A DNA stretch of 64,000 nt from Salvelinus alpinus (Eukaryota > Chordata > Actinopteri > Salmoniformes > Salmonidae). Position 1 is the stretch's first letter. Each line of letters opens with the position of its first letter. The translations under genes were made by a program, and so were the position numbers. The stretch covers positions 28,466,364 through 28,530,363 of the forward strand of contig NC_092096.1 of the NCBI RefSeq assembly GCF_045679555.1, read 5' to 3'. Of this stretch, positions 1 to 58,363 are shown piece by piece. The notes beneath the pieces were generated by a model. That model saw nothing but the letters and a program-made list of their open reading frames with translations, made no database searches and was not told where the DNA came from.

Positions 1-3000
1 CTCTATAACATTAGGAGAGGAGAGGGTCAGTTACTACTACTACTCTATAACATTAGGAGAGGAGAGGGTCAGTTACTACTACTACTCTATAACATTAGGA
101 GAGGAGAGGGTCAGTTACTACTACTACTACTCTCTAACATTAGGAGAGGAGAGGGTCAGTTACTACTACTACTACTCTATAACATTAGGAGATGAGAGGG
201 TCAGTTACTACTATTACTCTATAACATTAGGACAGGAGAGGGTCAGTTACTACTACTACTACTCTATAACATTAGGAGAGGAGAGGGTCAGTTACTACTA
301 CTACTACTCTATAACATTAAGAGAGGAGATGGTCAGTTACTACTACTACTACTACTATATAACATTAGGAGAGGAGAGTGTCAGTTACTACTACTACTCT
401 ATAACATTATGTGAGGAGAGGGTCAGTTACTACTACTACTACTCTATAACATTAGGAGAGGGTCAGTTACTACTACTACTCTATAACATTAGGAGAGGAG
501 AGGGTCAGTTACTACTACTACTACTCTATAACATTAGGAGAGGAGAGGGTCAGCTACTACTATTACTCTATAACATTAGGAGAGGAGAGGGTCAGTTACT
601 ACTATTACTCTATAACATTAGGAGAGGAGAGGGTCAGTTACTACTACTACTATTCTATAACATTAGGATAGGAGAGGGTCAGTTACTACTACTACTACTC
701 TATAACATTATTAGAGGAGAGGGTCAGTTACTACTACTACTACTCTATATAACATTAGGAGAGGAGAGTGTCAGTTACTACTACTACTCTATAACATTAT
801 GTGAGGAGAGGGTCAGTTACTACTACTACTACTCTATAACATTAGGAGAGGGTCAGTTACTACTACTACTCTATAACATTAGGAGAGGAGAGGGTCAGCT
901 ACTACTATTACTCTATAACATTAGGAGAGGAGAGGGTCAGCTACTACTATTACTCTATAACATTAGGAGAGGAGAGGGTCAGTTACTACTATTACTCTAT
1001 AACATTAGGAGAGGAGAGGGTCAGTTACTACTGCTACTACTCTATAACATTAGGAGAGGAGAGGGTCAGTTACTACTACTACTCTATAACATTAGGAGAG
1101 GAGAGGGTCAGTTACTGCTACTACTCTATAACATTAGGAGAGGAGAGGGTCAGTTACTACTACTACTATATAACATTAGGAGAGGAGAGGGTAAGTTACT
1201 ACTACTACTCTATAACATTAGGTGAGGAGAGGGTCAGTTACTACTACTACTCCTCTATAACATTAGGAGAGGAGAGGGTCGGTTACTACTACTACTCTAT
1301 AACATTAGGAGAGGAGAGGGTCAGTTACTGCTACTACTCTATAACATTAGGAGAGGAGAGGGTCAGTTACTACTACTACTACTCTATAACATTAGGAGAG
1401 GAGAGGGTCAGTTACTACTACTACTACTACTACTCTATAACATTAGGAGAGGAGAGGGTCAGTTACTACTACTACTCTATAACATTAGGAGAGGAGATGG
1501 TCAGTTACTACTACTGCTACTCTATAACATTAGGCGAGGAGAGGGTCAGTTACTACTACTACTACTACTCTATAACATTAGGAGAGGAGTGTGTCAGTTA
1601 CTACTACTACTACTGTATAACATTAGGAGAGGAGATGGTCAGTTACTACTACTACTACTACTCTCTAACATTAGGAGAGGAGAGGGTCAGTTACTACTAC
1701 TACTACTCTATAACATTAGGAGAGGAGAGGGTCAGTTACTACTACTACTACTATATAACATTACGAGAGGAGATGGTCAGTTACTACTACTACTACTACT
1801 ACTATATAACATTAGGAGAGGAGAGGGTCAGTTACTACTACTACTACTCTATAACATTAGGAGAGGAGATGGTCAGTTACTACTACTACTACTACTCTCT
1901 AACATTAGGAGAGGAGAGGGTCAGTTACTACTACTACTCTATAACATTAGGAGAGGAGAGGGTCAGTTACTACTACTACTACTCTATAACATTAGGAGAG
2001 GAGAGGGTCAGTTACTACTACTACTACTCTCTAACATTAGGAGAGGAGAGGGTCAGTTACTACTACTACTACTACTATATAACATTAGGAGAGGAGAGGG
2101 TCAGTTACTACTACTACTCTATAACATTAGGAGAGGAGAGGGTCAGTTACTACTACTACTCTATAACATTAGGAGAAGAGAGGGTCAGTTACTACTACTA
2201 CTCTATAACATTAGGAGAGGAGAGGGTCAGTTACTACTACTACTCTATAACATTAGGAGAGGAGAGGGTCAGTTACTGCTACTACTCTATAACATTAGGA
2301 GAGGAGAGGGTCAGTTACTGCTACTACTCTATAACATTAGGAGAGGAGAGGGTCAGTTACTACTACTACTATATAACATTAGGAGAGGAGAGGGTCAGTT
2401 ACTACTACTACTCTATAACATTAGGTGAGGAGAGGGTCAGTTACTACTACTACTACTCTATAACATTAGGAGAGGAGAGGGTCAGTTACTACTACTACTC
2501 TATAACATTAGGAGAGGAGAGGGTCAGTTACTGCTACTACTCTATAACATTAGGAGAGGAGAGGGTCAGTTACTACTACTACTCTATAACATTAGGAGAG
2601 GAGAGGGTCAGTTACTGCTACTACTCTATAACAGTAGGAGAGGAGAGGGTCAGTTACTACTACTACTACTCGATAACATTAGGAGAGGAGAGGGTCAGTT
2701 ACTACTACTACTATATAACATTAGGAGAGGAGAGGGTCAGTTACTACTACTACTCTATAACATTAGGAGAGGGTCAGTTACTGCTACTACTCTATAACAT
2801 TAGGAGAGGAGAGGGTCAGTTACTACTACTACTCTATAACATTAGGAGAGGAGAGGGTCAGTGACTGCTACTACTACTACTCTATAACATTAGGAGAGGA
2901 GTGTGTCAGTTACTACTACTACTACTCTATAACATTAGGAGAGGAGAGGGTCAGTTACTACTACTACTACTCAATAACATTAGGAGAGGGTCAGTTACTA

Positions 3001-3905
3001 CTACTACTACTCTATAACATTAGGAAAGGAGAGGGTCAGTTACTACTACTACTACTCAATAACATTAGGAGAGGAGAGGGTCAGTTACTACTACTACTAT
3101 ATAACATTAGGAGAGGAGAGGGTCAGTTACTACTACTACTCTATAACATTAGGAGAGGAGAGGGTCAGTTACTACTACTACTACTCAATAACATTAGGAG
3201 AGGAGAGGGTCAGTTACTACTACTACTATATAACATTAGGAGAGGAGAGGGTCAGTTACTACTACTACTTCTACTCTATAACATTAGGAGAGGAGAGGGT
3301 CAGTTACTACTACTACTACTCAATAACTTTAGGAGAGGAGAGGGTCAGTTACTACTACTACTATATAACATTAGGAGAGGAGAGGGTCAGTTACTACTAC
3401 TGCTCTATAACATTAGGAGAGGAGAGGGTCAGTTACTACTACTACTGTATAACATTAGGAGAGGAGATGGTCAGTTAATACTACTACTCTCTAACATTAT
3501 GAGAGGAGTGTGTCAGTTACTACTACTACTCTATAACATTAGGAGAGGAGTGTGTCAGTTACTACTACTACTCTATAACATTAGGAGAGGAGATGGTAAT
3601 TTACTACTACTACTCTATAACATTAGGATAGGAGAGGGTCAGTTAATACTACTACTACTATATAACATTACGAGAGGAGATGGTCAGTTACTACTACTAC
3701 TACTATATAACATTAGGAGAGGAGAGGGTCAGTTACTACTACTACTACTCTATAACATTAGGAGAGGAGATGGTCAGTTACTACTACTACTACTACTCTC
3801 TAACATTAGGAGAGGAGAGGGTCAGTTACTACTACTACTACTCTATAACTTTAGGAGAGGAGAGGGTCAGTTACTACTACTACTACTCTATAACATTAGG
3901 AGAGG
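1..3905. repeat. Minisatellite, about 42-48 bp unit, derived from a CL intron/exon boundary
   Basis: The whole stretch is a head-to-tail array of one unit containing GGAGAGGAGAGGGTCAG, a variable run of TAC triplets, then TCTATAACATTA. The unit is 42 bp with short triplet runs and 45 or 48 bp with longer ones, so about 85-90 copies are present and the array runs past the left window edge. Because units vary in steps of 3 bp, long open frames arise that encode only repeats such as YYYYSITLGEE; these are not genes. One unit-like copy lies at about 41,348-41,387, exactly at the start of the CL pseudogene exon, where the minus-strand CTGACCCTCTCC begins the exon. The array therefore looks like an expansion of that boundary. 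Confidence 0.95.
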
Positions 3906-4459
3906 AGGAAAGAGAAGAGACACTGTGTTATCAGTGAACAAAACCACTTCAGATCAACAGTGCACACTGAATATACAATTTGCTACAGTACAGAGAACAA
4001 CTGAGAATAATGAAAAACAATCTATAAAGATAAAGGAAAACGAAAAAACTCTGAATTAGTTTTTAGACCAAACAATCCACCAGATAAATGTATGTTACAT
4101 TCATGCTCTACAGTTAGCACATGAAGTGCAACAAAACACTTGGAGCGGGTTTCATGGACACAGATGAAGCCGTGTCCTAGACTAAAAATCACTTTGATAC
4201 AGTCTGCATACAGCATGATTTAATATTCACAATTTTAAATAAGACATGAAATCTCCATCTTCATTTATGTCAAAGCTACTCAGATACAATCCCAAAATAG
4301 TATTTAAAACTATAGATGAGGTTTACCTTCAAACTGCCAGTGTTAACATCTACTATGAATGCAATACACAGTGTTGGTTTTATTATAGGAATAGGGGTAG
4401 CTTCATCTCAACAGAACAATGAGCTGACATTCAAAACTGATATCAAAATGTGCTCTTTT
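3906..4459 (-). other. J-C intron of the second CL isotype, left part
   Basis: No coding potential. From about 4,085 the sequence matches 41,390-41,740 (shared ATGTATGTTACATTC, TTTAATATTCACAATTTTAA and ATCAAAATGTG), the intron next to the CL pseudogene. Positions 3,906-4,085 have no counterpart there. The CL exon that belonged here would lie left of the window, beyond the minisatellite. Confidence 0.7.
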
Positions 4460-5134
4460 TGTCACACACTGATCTGTTTCACCTGTCTTTGTGATTGTCT
4501 CCACCCCCCCACCAGGGGTTGCCGATCTTCACAATTATCCCCTGTGTATTTATACCTGTGTTCTCTGTTTGTCTGTTGCCAGTTCGTCTTGTTTGTCAAG
4601 TCAAACAGCGTTTTTGTCTCTCAGCTCCTGCTTTTCCCAGTCTCTCTTTTTCTCGCCCTCCTGGTTTTTACCCTTGCCTGTCCTGACTCTGAGCCCGCCT
4701 GCCTGACCACTCTGCCTGCCCCTGACCCTGAGCCTGCCTGCCGACCCGTACCTTTGCCCCACCTCCGGATTATTGACCTCTGCTTACCCTGACCCTGCCT
4801 GCCGACCTGTACCTTTGCCCCACCTCCGGAATTTTGACCTCTGCCTACCCTGAGCCTGCCTGTCGACCTGTACCTTTGCCCCACCTCCGGATTATTGACC
4901 TCTGCCTACCCTGACCCTGAGCCTGCCTGCCGACCTGTACCTTGGCCCAACCTCTGGATTATTGACCTCTGCCTACCCTGACACTGAGCCTGTCTGCCAT
5001 CTGGTACCGTTGCCCCACCTCTGGTTTACTGACCCCTAACTGCCCTGACCTGTCTATTGCCTGCCCCTGTTGGATTATTAAACCATTGTTAATTCGACGT
5101 TGTCTGCATCTGGGTCGTACCTTCATACCTGATA
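4460..5134 (+). mobile_element. LTR-like retroelement fossil with internal tandem repeats
   Basis: The insertion is defined by comparison with the paralogous intron at 41,740, where the flanks are continuous. It starts TGTCACACACTGATC and ends near CATACCTGATA. It contains three to four imperfect copies of a roughly 66-bp unit (about 4,680-5,040, with the motif GCCTGCCGACCTGTACC). The TG start and terminal layout resemble long terminal repeats that I recognise as common in salmonid genomes, probably Ty3/Gypsy-related. No coding domain is present. Family assignment is from memory. Confidence 0.5.
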
Positions 5135-5258
5135 CTTCTTAATCACATGTTAGAATGCTTATGGTTTTATTGTCAAATGAACATGGTGGTATGTGAACAA
5201 TTCTCTCACTCTGAGCTCTAAACATCTACCATTCTGTCCACAAAAATCTCTAAAAATA
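5135..5258 (-). other. J-C intron of the second isotype, right part
   Basis: This resumes the match to 41,750-41,880 (ATCACATGTTAGAATGCTTA). It stops at the TA where the Tc1 element is inserted, so no J segment follows as it does near 50.9 kb. Confidence 0.65.
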
Positions 5259-6285
5259 CACTGCTCCAAAAAATAAAGGGAACACTTAAACAACACAATG
5301 TAACTCCAAGTCAATCACACTTCTGTGAAATCAAACTGTCCACTTAGGAAGCAACACTGATTGACAATAAATTTCACATGCTGTTGTGCAAATGGAATAG
5401 ACAAAAGGTGGAAATTATAGGCAATTAGCAAGACACCCCCAATAAAGGAGTGGTTCTGCAGGTGGTGACCACAGACCACTTCTCAGTTCCTATGCTTCCT
5501 GGCTGATGTTTTGGTCACTTTTGAATGCTGGCGGTGCTTTCACTCTAGTGGTAGCATGAGACGGAGTCTACAACCCACACAAGTGGCTCAGGTAGTGCAG
5601 CTTATCCAGGATGGCACATCAATGCGAGCTGTGGCAAGAAGGTTTGCTGTGTCTGTCAGCGTAGTGTCCAGAGCATGGAGGCGCTACCAGGAGACAGGCC
5701 AGTACATCAGGAGATGAGGAGGAGGCCGTAGGAGGGCAACAACCCAGCAGCAGGACCGCTACCTCCGCCTTTGTGCAAGGAGGAGCACTGCCAGAGCCCT
5801 GCAAAATGACCTCCAGCAGGCCACAAATGTGCATGTGTCAGCATATGGTCTCACAAGGGGTCTGAGGATCTCATCTCGGTACCTAATGGCAGTCAGGCTA
5901 CCTCTGGCGAGCACATGGAGGGCTGTGCGGCCCCACAAAGAAATGCCACCCCACACCATGACTGACCCACCGCCAAACCGGTCATGCTGGAGGATGTTGC
6001 AGGCAGCAGAACGTTCTCCACGGCGTCTCCAGACTCTGTCACGTCTGTCACATGTGCTCATGTGCTCAGTGTGAACCTGCTTTCATCTGTGAAGGGCACA
6101 GGGCGCCAGTGGCAAATTTGCCAATCTTGGTGTTCTCTGGCAAATGCCAAACATCCTGCACGGTGTTGGGCTGTAAGCACAACCCCCACCTGTGGACGTC
6201 GGGCCCTCATACCACCCTCATGGAGTCTGTTTCTGACCGTTTGAGCAGACACATGCACATTTGTGGCCTGCTGGAGGTCATTTTC
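5259..6285 (+). mobile_element. Tc1/mariner element, rearranged and 3'-truncated
   Basis: The left terminus CACTGCTCCAAAAAATAAAG follows a TA. A Tc1 transposase amino end is read on the + strand from about 5,550 ([20 protein letters not shown], helix-turn-helix region) to a motif [13 protein letters not shown] near 5,845. From there to about 6,280 the continuing transposase (QTVRNRLHEGGMRARRPQVG, then [19 protein letters not shown] and [10 protein letters not shown]) is read only on the - strand. The middle of the element has thus been inverted, and a piece of about 35 bp is repeated in opposite orientation at both edges. The usual right terminus is absent. Not functional. Confidence 0.8.
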
Positions 6286-6289
6286 CCCA

Positions 6290-6452
6290 CCTATGTTGTG
6301 GGATCTTGTTTTTGTACAGCTCTTGTAGCCTACGGAACAGTACGTTCGTTTTGGTTTCACTTTGTTAATTTGTTGCTGGTTCTCATTTAAATAAATGTGA
6401 TGACCACAAATTACGCTGCGCCTTGGTCTCCTTCAAACAACGAACGTTACAA
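6290..6452 (+). mobile_element. LTR-like 3' end, fossil fragment
   Basis: It contains an AAATAAA signal followed by GCTGCGCCTTGGTCTC and ends CGAACGTTACA. This closely resembles the 3' end of the LTR-like element that ends at 17,207. Only the terminal part is present. Assignment rests on similarity between the two places. Confidence 0.4.
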
Positions 6453-15435: not shown

Positions 15436-15604
15436 TTACGTGGATCTTGTAAAACAGACGTTGCTTAATACAAGTGTGATCAAATGTTGATAACATTAGC
15501 GTACTGTCTTTATGAATCTATAAATCAAGCATGGTCAAAAAATGGTCCAAAGATATGAATCAAAATAACCATCACCTACTACATGTGGCTAGACCTGTCC
15601 TGTT

Positions 15605-16400
15605 ATTCTTGAAACATTGTACTGTCTAGACCTCTCCAGTTAACTGTTAACATTGTAGTATATACACCTCTCCTGTTAATCTGTTAACGTTGTAGTATCT
15701 ACACCTCTCCTGTTAATCTGTTATCATTGTAGTATCTACACCTCTCCTGTTAATCTGTTATCATTGTAGTATCTACACCTCTCCTGTTAATATGTTAACA
15801 TTGTAGTATCTACACCTCTCCTGTTAATCTGTTATCATTGTAGTATTTAGACCTCTCCTATTAATCTGTTAACATTGTAGTATCTAGACCTCTCCTGTTA
15901 ATCTGTTATCATTGTAGTATCTACACCTCTCCTGTTAATCTGTTAACATTATAGTATCTAGACCTCTCCTGTTAATCTGTTAACATTGTAGTATCTACAC
16001 CTCTCCTGTTAATCTGTTAACATTATAGTATCTAGACCTCTCCTGTTAATCTGTTAACATTATAGTATCTAGACCTCTCCTGTTAATCTGTCAACATTGT
16101 AGTATCTAGACCTCTCCTGTTAATCTGTTAACATTATAGTATCTACACCTCTCCTGTTAATCTGTTAACATTGTAGTATCTACACCTCTCCTGTTAATCT
16201 GGTAACATTATAGTATCTAGACCTCTCCTGTTAATCTGGTAACATTATAGTATCTAGACCTCTCCTGTTAATCTGTTAACATTGTAGTATCTACACCTCT
16301 CCTGTTAATCTGTTAACATTATAGAATCTAGACCTCTCCTATTAATCTGTTAACATTGTAGTGTCTAGACCTCTCCTGTTAATCTGTTAACATTGTATTA
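15605..16400 (+). repeat. 37-bp tandem repeat array, about 21 copies
   Basis: The unit is TATCTAGACCTCTCCTGTTA followed by ATCTGTTAACATTATAG, with small variation (CTACACC/CTAGACC, TTATC/TTAAC). The same sequence occurs as a single unit at 46,672-46,714, ending in the same CTTGTGTTA, so the array expanded only in this copy of the flank. Confidence 0.95.
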
Positions 16401-16792
16401 TCTTGTGTTAATATCAACTGCTGTAAAATGGCGCCAGAGAAGAAGGCAGATGTTTTACGTGCCCCCAGCAGATTGTATATTTTGTTTGTTTATTTGCGTT
16501 GTTTGTAACTTATTTTTTTACTTATTTTGTTCATAATGTTGCCGCTACCATCTCTTATGAACAAAAATAACTTCTAGACATCAGGACTGCGATTTCCACA
16601 GACTAGCAGAATCCTTTATTTCATTTCATGACTCTGATGAGCCCGATGTGAAGGATATACTGCTTCCTCTGGAACAGGCCCCGATCCCCGTGATCTGCGT
16701 GAAAAGGAGGCGAAGAAAGAGGGGCCGAAGGGTGGGCTGCCTTCTGAGACTTTGTAGGCGATCGAGAAAAACCCCCACTTCCCTCCATTCTG

Positions 16793-21282: not shown

Positions 21283-21599
21283 CTACCCAGAACAGTCAGC
21301 CTTCCTCAAGGTCTTGGTGACTGGAGTCTGGGATTTCTGCTGGGCTTCACAGGTCACCTCTCCTGCCTTGGTCCACTCCTGGCCAGTGAGAGTCAGGGTG
21401 CTGCTCCAGCTGTACAGACCGTCCTTCTCCAGGACCCCGAGACTGGTCTTCTGGTTCTTGCTGGTCCCGTCCACTTTCCAGCTCAAGGTCCAGTCTGAGG
21501 GGAAACCCTTGTTGGCCAGACACGTCAGTGTGGCTGTTGTTGTACTGGACAGCTCCTCACTAGAGGGGGGCAGGACGGTGAGGGTGGGGGCACTGTTAC
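21283..21599 (-). CDS. C1: IgL constant-domain exon (CL)
   Basis: A single 317-bp exon after a TTCCAG acceptor, phase matching the J donors (A|GT gives Ser). The protein reads [19 protein letters not shown], then [20 protein letters not shown] (first domain Cys and Trp), [14 protein letters not shown], and [19 protein letters not shown] (second Cys). It ends ADCSG, whose Cys would bond the heavy chain. It is a complete C1-set Ig domain of normal CL length, 104 residues. It lies 0.9 kb from J1 and 1.4 kb from J2 on the same strand, with a poly(A) signal. It is likely the functional light-chain constant region of this cluster, in the kappa-like teleost group judging by RSS type; the isotype number is not certain. 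Confidence 0.95.
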
Positions 21600-24066: not shown

Positions 24067-24130
24067 CCCTGTGAGTTTAACACTTCGTGACTGAGAGCTG
24101 TCCTTCATGACAACAGAACCCACAGCAACC

Positions 24131-24636
24131 ATGACTTTTATCACCATCTTCATCTGGACACTTGTTTTCTACATAGAAGGTTAACATTTTCAGAATGTAT
24201 TATTGCAAATTAATTAAATCTACAGTGTTTACATGTACAGTATATCAACGTTAATATTTATATTCAGAACTATTCATTACTATATGTAACATTTCATTCT
24301 TATAAATGTTTTTACTATATTTTTCAGAATCCAGAGGACAGTACGTTGTGACACAGACTCCGGCAGTGAAAGCTGTTGTCCCAGAACAGACAGTCTCTCT
24401 GAACTGTAAAACCAGCAGTAATGTTCACAACAATGACTTTTTAGCCTGGTATCAACAGAAACCTGGAGGAGCTCCTAAACTCCTTATTTACCGTGCTACA
24501 ACACTTCAGTCTGGGACTCCATCGAGATTCAGTGGCAGTGGAACTCATAGTGACTTCACTCTGACCATCAGTGGAGTCCAGACTGAAGATGCAGGAGATT
24601 ACTACTGTCAGAGTTACCACAGTAGTGGAGAGTTCA
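24131..24636 (+). CDS. V4: open IgL V gene
   Basis: Leader exon 24,131-24,179 ([16 protein letters not shown]) ends G|GTTAAC. The V exon 24,328-24,636 is open: [21 protein letters not shown]23 in [12 protein letters not shown] in [14 protein letters not shown]2 [10 protein letters not shown]3 [20 protein letters not shown]104 in [23 protein letters not shown] 24,637-24,643, 12-bp spacer, ACAAAAACC 24,656-24,664. It is the nearest V to J1/J2, about 1.1 kb away in opposite orientation with both RSSs facing right, so joining requires inversion of the stretch between. All functional elements are present. Confidence 0.95.
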
Positions 24637-41066: not shown

Positions 41067-41358
41067 CTAGACACTACAGTGACTTCTGCGGAAGGCGGCC
41101 GAATCACTGGTGTTGTCCTGGGCGTCCCTGCAGGTGTACACCTCTCCCTCTTCCCAGCGTGCCTTGCTCAGGGTCAGGGTGCTGCTGCTGCGGCCGCCGC
41201 CCTTTTCTTCCTCTGTGGTGGTCAGGACCCCCTCCTTTACCTCCGCCCGTCTACCTCCCAGCTCACCATCGCCCCCTGAGGGGAGTAGTCACTCAGCAGG
41301 CAGGCCAGTGTGGCCGAGCCCCCGGAGAGCTGCTCAGAGGACGGGGGGAGAGGGTCAG
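41067..41358 (-). pseudogene. CL pseudogene of a second isotype
   Basis: On the - strand LTLSPPSSEQLSGGSATLAC, then LLSDYSPQGAMVSWEVDG, is a typical CL first half. A one-base loss in GACGGGCGGAGG shifts the frame to an immediate stop. In the shifted frame the rest is clear: EVKEGVLTTTEEEKGG, STLTLSKARWEEGEVYTC, then RRSHCSV and a stop. Compared with C1 it has a different G-strand and tail (SHCSV versus ADCSG), so it is a distinct isotype. The exon seems to lack its first residues; an AG lies directly before the first Leu codon, next to one minisatellite unit. Its J is also lost. Confidence 0.9.
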
Positions 41359-42221
41359 CTACTACTCTATAACATTAGGAGAGGAGTGGAGATAAACGTA
41401 TGTTACATTCATGCTCTACAGTTTAGCACATCAAGAGCAACAGAACACTGGGAGGGGGTTTCCTGGACACAAAAAATCACTAGATACAGTATCATTTAAT
41501 ATTCACAATTTTAAATCTGACATGAAATCTTCATATAAATTTATGTCAAATCGACTCTGAGATACAAGCCCAAAATGACCTCAAAATACATTTCAGAACT
41601 ACAGATGAATTTCACCTTCAAACCATGTCAGTGTTAACATTTACTATGAATGCAATACAAAGTGTTGCTTATATTACATAAATAGTCGTTGCTAAATCTC
41701 AACAGAACAATGAGGTGATATTCAATACAGTATATCAAAATGTGGTCTTTTTAATCACATGTTAGAATGCTTATGGTTTTATTGCCAAATAAAAATGGTG
41801 GTATGTGAACAATTCTCTCACTTCGGTGACTCTGCCCTCTACCAATCCACCGATCTGTCCACAAAAATCTCTAAAAAGATATTGCCTAAAAAAAAATGTT
41901 TTTCTGGAGAAGATGATAACATCTCATAACATTGTTCTGGTGAAGTCTCCGTACTAAAACCTCCTTCACACAATATTGAGAACCTTCATACGCAGAGTAC
42001 TCTCAATACCACCGTAATAGTCCTGAGGTACTAGTATAATACAATAGGGACTAATAGTCCTGGGTTCTGAGTAAATCTGAGTAAAGAACGGCAATCTTGG
42101 ATCACTGATTTACATAATGAGGTATTTAAAATATGATAATATAATTTAATAACATAATCTGTATCTGTATAATTTGTGTCATATTAAACAGTTATGAATG
42201 TGGGTCCTTACCAGGAAGACT
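41359..42221 (-). other. J-C intron remnant of the CL pseudogene; J deleted
   Basis: It matches 4,085-5,258 and 50,790-51,040. At about 41,938 the sequence jumps from CATAACATTGTT to CTGGTGAAGTCTCCG, then TACTAAAACCTCC. In the J3 copy the same two pieces are separated by the J coding sequence and heptamer. Only the nonamer side is left. Confidence 0.75.
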
Positions 42222-49654: not shown

Positions 49655-49971
49655 CTACCCAGAACAGTCAGCCCTCCTTAGGGTCTTGGTGACTGGAGTC
49701 TGGGATTTCTGCTGGGCTTCACAGGTCACCTCTCCTGCCTTGGTCCACTCCTGGCCAGTGAGAGTCAGGGTGCTGCTCCAGCTGTACAGACCATCCTTTT
49801 CCAGGAACCTGCAACTGTCCTCCTGCTTCTTGCTGGACCCGTCCACTTTCCAGCTCAAGGTCCAGTCTGAGGGGAAACCCTTGTTGGCCAAACATGTCAG
49901 TGTGGCTGTTGTTGTACTGGACAGCTCCTCACTAGAGGGGGGCAGGACGGTGAGGGTGGGGGAACTGTTAC
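49655..49971 (-). CDS. C2: IgL constant-domain exon with an extra cysteine
   Basis: A 317-bp exon, same length and phase as C1: [78 protein letters not shown]. It differs from C1 mainly in one loop, [14 protein letters not shown], where C1 reads [14 protein letters not shown]. This adds a cysteine besides the domain pair and the terminal Cys. The coding sequence is intact with acceptor and poly(A) signal. However, J1/J2-like segments are deleted from its upstream intron, and the only nearby J (J3) has no donor. It may therefore be expressed only by splicing from a distant J, or not at all. Confidence 0.93.
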
Positions 49972-51004: not shown

Positions 51005-51300
51005 CAGAGCACTCTCAGTACCACCCTGATAGTACTAGTATATATATATATATACACACAACAGGGACTGATAGTACTGAAGTACTAGTATAATACAACA
51101 AGGACTGATAGTACTGAAGTATGGGTATAATAAAATAGGGACTGATAGTACTAGTATATATATATATATATGCACAACAGGAACTGATCAAACTGAACTA
51201 CTAGTATAACGCAGTAGGGACTCATAGTACTGCATTACTAGTATAATGCAAAAGGGACTCATAGTACTGCATTACTAGTATAATACAATAGGTGAGGTAT
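51005..51300. repeat. Imperfect tandem repeat with TA microsatellites
   Basis: Five to six copies of a phrase such as GGGACTGATAGTACTGAAGT followed by ACTAGTATAATACAA. Two carry TATATATATATA runs (51,038 and 51,155). About one copy lies at 42,020-42,065, so this array too has grown in only one paralog. Confidence 0.8.
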
Positions 51301-58263: not shown

Positions 58264-58363
58264 NNNNNNNNNNNNNNNNNNNNNNNNNNNNNNNNNNNNN
58301 NNNNNNNNNNNNNNNNNNNNNNNNNNNNNNNNNNNNNNNNNNNNNNNNNNNNNNNNNNNNNNN
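58264..58363. other. Assembly gap, exactly 100 N
   Basis: A run of 100 N, the usual placeholder for unknown length. Left sequence ends GAGTTTAACACT, right begins CATGACTGAGAG. In other V genes these are separated by a single T, so the two contigs could abut, or whole V units may be missing. Confidence 0.98.

Follow-up and report, generated by a model that had tools for sequence, protein, structure and literature searches.

The tandem array that opens the analysed stretch of Salvelinus alpinus DNA (the window, 64,000 nucleotides, C11:28466364-28530363) belongs to a satellite that very probably originated in the J-C intron of a single light-chain isotype, from its last ~45 bases, and the most likely role of this satellite is none, i. 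e. it would be neutral. One and the same genome contains the seed, a form with a TAG expansion, a form with four units and arrays of 14 kb and 125 kb, and a direct comparison of the steps that lead from unique DNA to a satellite is therefore possible.

Extent, flanks and genomic distribution of the array

A preliminary description of the window had placed a minisatellite at positions 1 to 3905, and it is indeed there: TRF detects a tandem array at 1-3907 (period 42, 89.5 copies, score 5827). With one mismatch allowed, this part of the array contains 90 TAACATTA anchors, i. e. 89 steps, most of them 42 bp (43 steps) or 45 bp (31 steps) long; the others measure 48 bp (8), 37 bp (3), 51 bp (2), 47 bp (1) and 40 bp (1). 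On the minus strand, the unit reads CTGACCCTCTCCTCTCCTAATGTTATAGAGTAGTAGTAGTAA, and the lengths of 42, 45 and 48 bp are set by the number of TAG triplets. The earlier count of nearly 90 units is correct for the window, but the full array on C11 is far longer and has 2,797 anchors (953 + 1844) and 2,791 unit steps. With negative coordinates for positions to the left of the window and 0 for the base just before window base 1, the array spans -126,325 to 3,907, which corresponds to 130,233 bp, or to 125,042 bp without a 5,191-bp element. Long identical blocks recur at offsets of 3381, 2464 and 1963 bp and others, and distinct 400-mers account for 52% and 75% of the positions in the two blocks of the C11 array, as expected for block duplication.

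The element is an LTR retrotransposon at -83,549 to -78,359. Its two LTRs (448 and 446 bp) are identical apart from a GA indel of 2 bases, and thus the element is young; CTACT is a possible target duplication.

A sister array is present on C37: 337 anchors over 14.3 kb without any N, with 335 unit steps and 88 distinct units. Eight of these 88 units are shared with C11, and 99 of the 335 C37 units have an identical twin there. In both arrays, similar units are arranged head to tail, as in satellites and minisatellites. On one side, the C37 array is bordered by a J-C intron with a J-like core, and on the other side by a CL exon, of which the last ~60 bases remain, together with the 3' UTR (82% over 243 bp). 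This sister array is thus adjoined by a CL exon remnant in the orientation that had been predicted for the array of the window. The size of the C11 array rests on one assembly, and its long identical blocks are what an over-expansion of repeats during assembly could produce. We nevertheless regard it as improbable that the size is in part such an artefact, given that the array has no N, 253 distinct units and a single inserted element, and that an independent array exists on C37.

The right flank of the C11 array is J-C intron. Positions 4082-4460 match 41390-41752, i. e. the intron of the CL pseudogene at 41 kb (76.5%, E 2e-83), and 5135-5276 match 41747-41896 (82%, E 2e-38). Moreover, positions 3908-4081 are common to the C37 relatives L031 and L032, and 4082-4460 are shared with these relatives as well as with the pseudogene. 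The homology thus continues beyond the array, which therefore occupies the end of a J-C intron that faces CL, and the origin from a CL gene holds. A J core of the isotype of the pseudogene was not found in window 4-9 kb with up to 6 substitutions. Beyond the intron homology, positions ~5277-6300 look like what we take to be a remnant of a Tc1-type transposon. The features of the window are listed in Table 1.

Table 1. Features of the window that bear on the origin of the array
Feature	Position	Strand	Remark
Satellite array, right-hand 3.9 kb	1..3907	-	part of C11:28340038-28470270
J-C intron, upstream of the array in CL direction	3908..4460	-	homology to relatives
Insertion in J-C intron, ~61-bp GC-rich tandem repeat	4461..5134	.	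ends match L037
J-C intron homology to 41747-41896	5135..5276	-	
CL21, open CL exon, other isotype	21286..21597	-	J-C intron end without unit (control)
V gene stretch	24089..24562	+	94% match over 474 bp to truncated V at left end of C11 array
CL pseudogene CL41, isotype of the array	41071..41348	-	frameshifted
Single array unit joined to CL exon	41349..41387	-	53-bp deletion
J-C intron of CL41	41390..41896	-	homology
CL49, second open CL exon, other isotype	49658..49969	-	intron end without unit (control)

The left end of the C11 array is cut into a truncated V gene at -126,326. This gene is the one matched by the V stretch in the window, and the match ends at ...GACTTCACTCT, where the array starts. 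A search with two CL queries detected no CL exon adjoining this end; the closest CL to the left belongs to another isotype (-129,272 to -129,583). The CL exon that had been expected to the left of the window's array can thus be rejected. The absence of such an exon had been named as an argument against an origin from a CL gene; it applies to C11 and does not apply to C37, where the exon remnant adjoins.

As judged by the exact 38-base core of the unit, the satellite is confined to these two CL loci. In 2.37 Gb (928 contigs), the exact 38-mer AACATTAGGAGAGGAGAGGGTCAGTTACTACTACTACT occurs 1210 times in forward and 111 times in reverse orientation, and the reversed control does not occur at all. 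Local counts of 1210 in the C11 array and 111 in the C37 array account for all 1,321 genomic copies; the exact 38-mer is found nowhere else, and diverged copies elsewhere are possible. An unrelated satellite family spread over other chromosomes, which the preliminary description had set against its own reading, did not turn up with this 38-mer. The shorter 12-mer GGAGAGGGTCAG is not specific for the array (2377 + 1042 occurrences vs. 570 + 546 for the control). It is also present in a 35-bp minisatellite on C2 (L047 315-938, 17.8 copies) and in a 37-bp minisatellite on C3 (L046 478-1501, 27.7 copies); both were considered as members of the array family and rejected, as their units are different despite the common 12-mer. 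That unrelated minisatellites contain this 12-mer would also be compatible with a foreign satellite that landed in the locus and resembles the CL boundary by chance. This idea is hardly credible: the intron homology reaches the edge of the array at both loci, the unit matches the intron ends of six loci with scores that none of 500 shuffles reach, and the exact 38-mer has no copies outside the arrays.

Some other features of the window may be mentioned here. Positions 15589-16403 contain a 37-bp minisatellite of 22 copies (CTAGACCTCTCCTGTTAATCTGTTAACATTGTAGTAT); its best alignment to the array unit has a score of 23 over 20 bases only, which was reached by 1 of 500 simple shuffles. Another 37-bp tandem repeat is located at 51026-51292 (ACAACAGGGACTGATAGTACTGAAGTACTAGTATAAT), and by eye, similar words are present upstream of J in L031. 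There is a 100-N assembly gap at 58264-58363.

The unit and the border of the CL exon

As had been described, the unit of the array occurs singly at about 41,348-41,387, directly beside the CL pseudogene. The local alignment has a score of 59, and none of 500 dinucleotide shuffles reach this score. At this site, CTGACCCTCTCC had been taken for the first coding sequence of the exon, and this assignment has to be rejected: in 10 of 10 fetched relatives the exon starts with CTGGTCC, preceded by AG in 9 of them and by AT in L037, and therefore CTGACCCTCTCC is intronic. For example, the intron of the relative at C37:17.198 Mb ends with ...CTCACCCTCTCCTCTCTCCTCTTTTCCAG and the exon follows from CTGGTCC; the L031 intron ends with GTAGCTCACCCTCTCCTCTCTCCTCTTTTCCAG. 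As compared to L031, the pseudogene lacks 53 bp, i. e. 17 bp of intron including the AG and 36 bp of exon, and CTCC is present at each of the two break points. What looks like an intron-exon border at 41 kb is therefore the scar of a deletion, and only this deletion brings the unit into contact with the exon. In addition, two stretches of the L031 intron are missing from the pseudogene, one of ~165-200 bp next to the unit and one of ~100 bp in which J is located in L031. Neither CTGGTCC nor CCAG was found in the C11 or the C37 array, and the unit is thus devoid of exon sequence. Of the idea that the array arose from a CL intron-exon border, the end of the J-C intron has been retained; the part of the border that lies in the exon does not belong to the unit. 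In sequence terms, CTGACCCTCTCC would consist of a branch-point-like CTGAC and the presumed start of the polypyrimidine tract; the assignment of CTGAC as a branch point is by motif only.

It had also been proposed that the unit spans the border and that the array provides many acceptor sites in front of a CL exon, which could weaken or diversify splicing. The unit does derive from an intron end, it has one AG (TTATAG) ~24 nt after CTGAC and behind a pyrimidine run (pyrimidine fraction of 0.81 over 16 bases), and at C37 the J-C intron, the array and the exon remnant are retained in order. Even so, this scenario is very unlikely. First, as outlined above, CTGACCCTCTCC is intron and not exon. Second, an AG just before CTGACC is rare in the arrays: TAG precedes CTGACC at 3 of 80 sites in window 1-3907, at 7 of 2242 sites in the whole C11 array and at 15 of 313 sites on C37, and the usual form is TAA (76 of 80 in window 1-3907 and 2156 of 2242 in the C11 array). 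Third, on a rough matrix, the best AG of the unit has an acceptor score of 0.3, which is reached by 10.3% of background AGs, vs. 3.2-9.3 for 12 CL intron ends (the end of L037 has no AG). The right C11 block has 10,356 AGs on the minus strand, and 16 of them score at least 3.2, the value of the weakest real CL acceptor scored; the maximum is 3.8. Finally, there is no exon behind the C11 array, and the exon at C37 lacks its front. The many acceptor-like sites that had been anticipated thus appear to be weak, and a weak use of them is possible.

Relatives, growth of the repeat and gene death

A search with the CL peptide gave 63 matches, and 11 of the loci belong to the isotype of the pseudogene (best piece at least 64% identical). 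The 10 of these loci that are outside the window were fetched; the exons of L034 and L037 are partial, and L039 is also cut. The comparison of the unit consensus with the CL intron ends, which had been suggested as a check, bears out the relationship: no shuffle among 500 reaches the score at L031, L037, L041, L042, L043 and the 41-kb pseudogene. The stretch homologous to the unit directly precedes the AG that would serve as acceptor. L041, L042 and L043 have one unit each at the intron end. In L037, one unit is expanded by ~150 TAG-rich bases (about 1075-1235), and a second unit-like stretch is seen by eye closer to the exon. In L031, there are four units and the acceptor is intact. The alignment is weak in L034, in which an insertion splits the unit (4 of 500 shuffles reach the score), and it is limited to the pyrimidine run in L035, L038 and L039 (1, 1 and 4 of 500). 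L040 has no match at the intron end (323 of 500), and the same is true for the controls CL21 and CL49 (325 and 414 of 500), the other isotype of which we presume to be kappa-like. No exon start was found within 1.8 kb in L036, a tenth homologue of the intron.

It is plausible that the relatives with one unit, with the TAG expansion and with four units represent a birth series of the satellite. The seed would have been the presumed branch point (CTGAC) together with the start of the polypyrimidine tract. The first duplication may have occurred by slippage between copies of CCTCTCC, or of 6-base parts of it, on either side of the unit: such CCTCTCC pairs are 44 bp apart in L041 and 31 bp apart in the 41-kb pseudogene, and 6-base pairs flank the unit in L043; L042 has no pyrimidine repeat of at least 6 bases at such a spacing. 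Later growth would have proceeded by slippage and by unequal exchange, with duplication of blocks, and it would have been tolerated because the CL genes had died earlier or died along with it. A growth driven by hairpins is not favoured, since the folding of the unit is equalled or surpassed by 190 of 200 shuffles on one strand and by 100 of 200 on the other. TAACTGACC is the usual form in the C11 and C37 arrays and in the inner units of L031, and the single-copy forms have TAGCTGA. By eye, this suggests that both arrays and the L031 units go back to one small tandem ancestor. For the single unit at 41 kb, an array that has collapsed is a possible alternative to the ancestral state.

On C11 and C37, the repeat and gene death go together, and either order would be compatible with the sequences. 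All seven unit-bearing CL exons that were read on these contigs are broken: L031, L041, L042, L043 and the 41-kb pseudogene are frameshifted, L037 is frameshifted and has lost the AG, and L034, which was read in part, has a frameshift in that part. The open CL exons of a pair on C10 and of a copy on C38 have no TAG unit. The proposal that the array marks how its CL gene died fits both arrays, and the order of events is not part of this support. It is tempting to speculate that the array, growing at the end of the intron, destroyed the acceptor and then part of the exon, thus killing CL genes. Both long arrays lack the acceptor and the front of the exon, the C37 locus keeps only the last ~60 exon bases and the C11 locus none, and the seven broken exons would fit as well. 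However, we consider this order of events possible but unlikely: the damage in L041, L042 and L043, which have a single unit, consists of frameshifts elsewhere in the exon, and L031 with its four units has an intact acceptor and a frameshift in the exon. Moreover, L035 is frameshifted and has no TAG unit; therefore, death does not need the repeat and can come first.

Comparison with known repeats and light-chain loci

Unique sequence can turn into a minisatellite if slippage occurs between short direct repeats on its two sides. The array resembles such minisatellites in its single-copy unit, in its tandem growth and, as far as L041, L043 and the 41-kb pseudogene but not L042 are concerned, in the short direct repeats on both sides of the unit, and it differs in three respects: (i) the seed is the end of an antibody J-C intron, with the presumed branch point and polypyrimidine tract; (ii) several intermediates are present in one genome; and (iii) the end product has reached 125 kb. 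With its thousands of units and long identical blocks, the array is also similar to satellite DNA with higher-order duplication, from which it is set apart by its restriction, to the extent tested, to two light-chain loci. The class of event is known, and it is the seed, the size and the surviving intermediates that distinguish this array.

In mammals, the switch regions of the IgH locus are tandem repeats in the intron before an antibody constant exon. The array shares with them the location in an antibody-gene intron and the density of WRCY motifs, with 107/kb on the plus strand vs. 32/kb elsewhere in the window, nearly all of them TACT. In contrast to a switch region, the array lies in a light-chain locus and is poor in AGCT (0.1/kb vs. 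4.6/kb), and the intact constant exon that should follow downstream is missing at C11. It is highly improbable that the array is an AID-sensitive, switch-like stretch of 125 kb in which breaks, in B cells or in the germ line, drive deletions and inversions between light-chain clusters. If true, a switch-like array between kappa-like clusters would function in the manner of a switch region and still not be one.

The window contains V genes on the plus strand and CL exons of several isotypes on the minus strand, which is the content of a teleost light-chain locus. In the light-chain clusters of teleosts, V is opposite to J and C (PMC5241823, PMC5192425, PMC3014032). According to these accounts, several isotypes are arranged in clusters on several chromosomes, and the light-chain loci considered here are alike; the passages on these clusters mention no satellite array. 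The word 'repeat' does not occur in the torafugu paper, and we recognised no satellite in a light-chain J-C intron in a search that covered mainly literature outside subscription. CL peptide words used to place the isotype in the literature gave no match.

Satellites usually hide their origin, and in this case the steps are visible within one genome. We suggest that the array is probably a functionless by-product of the birth and death of light-chain genes that may destabilise the locus. It illustrates how constant exons can disappear from a light-chain locus next to an expanding repeat, and it provides a marker for the instability of antibody loci in Salvelinus alpinus.
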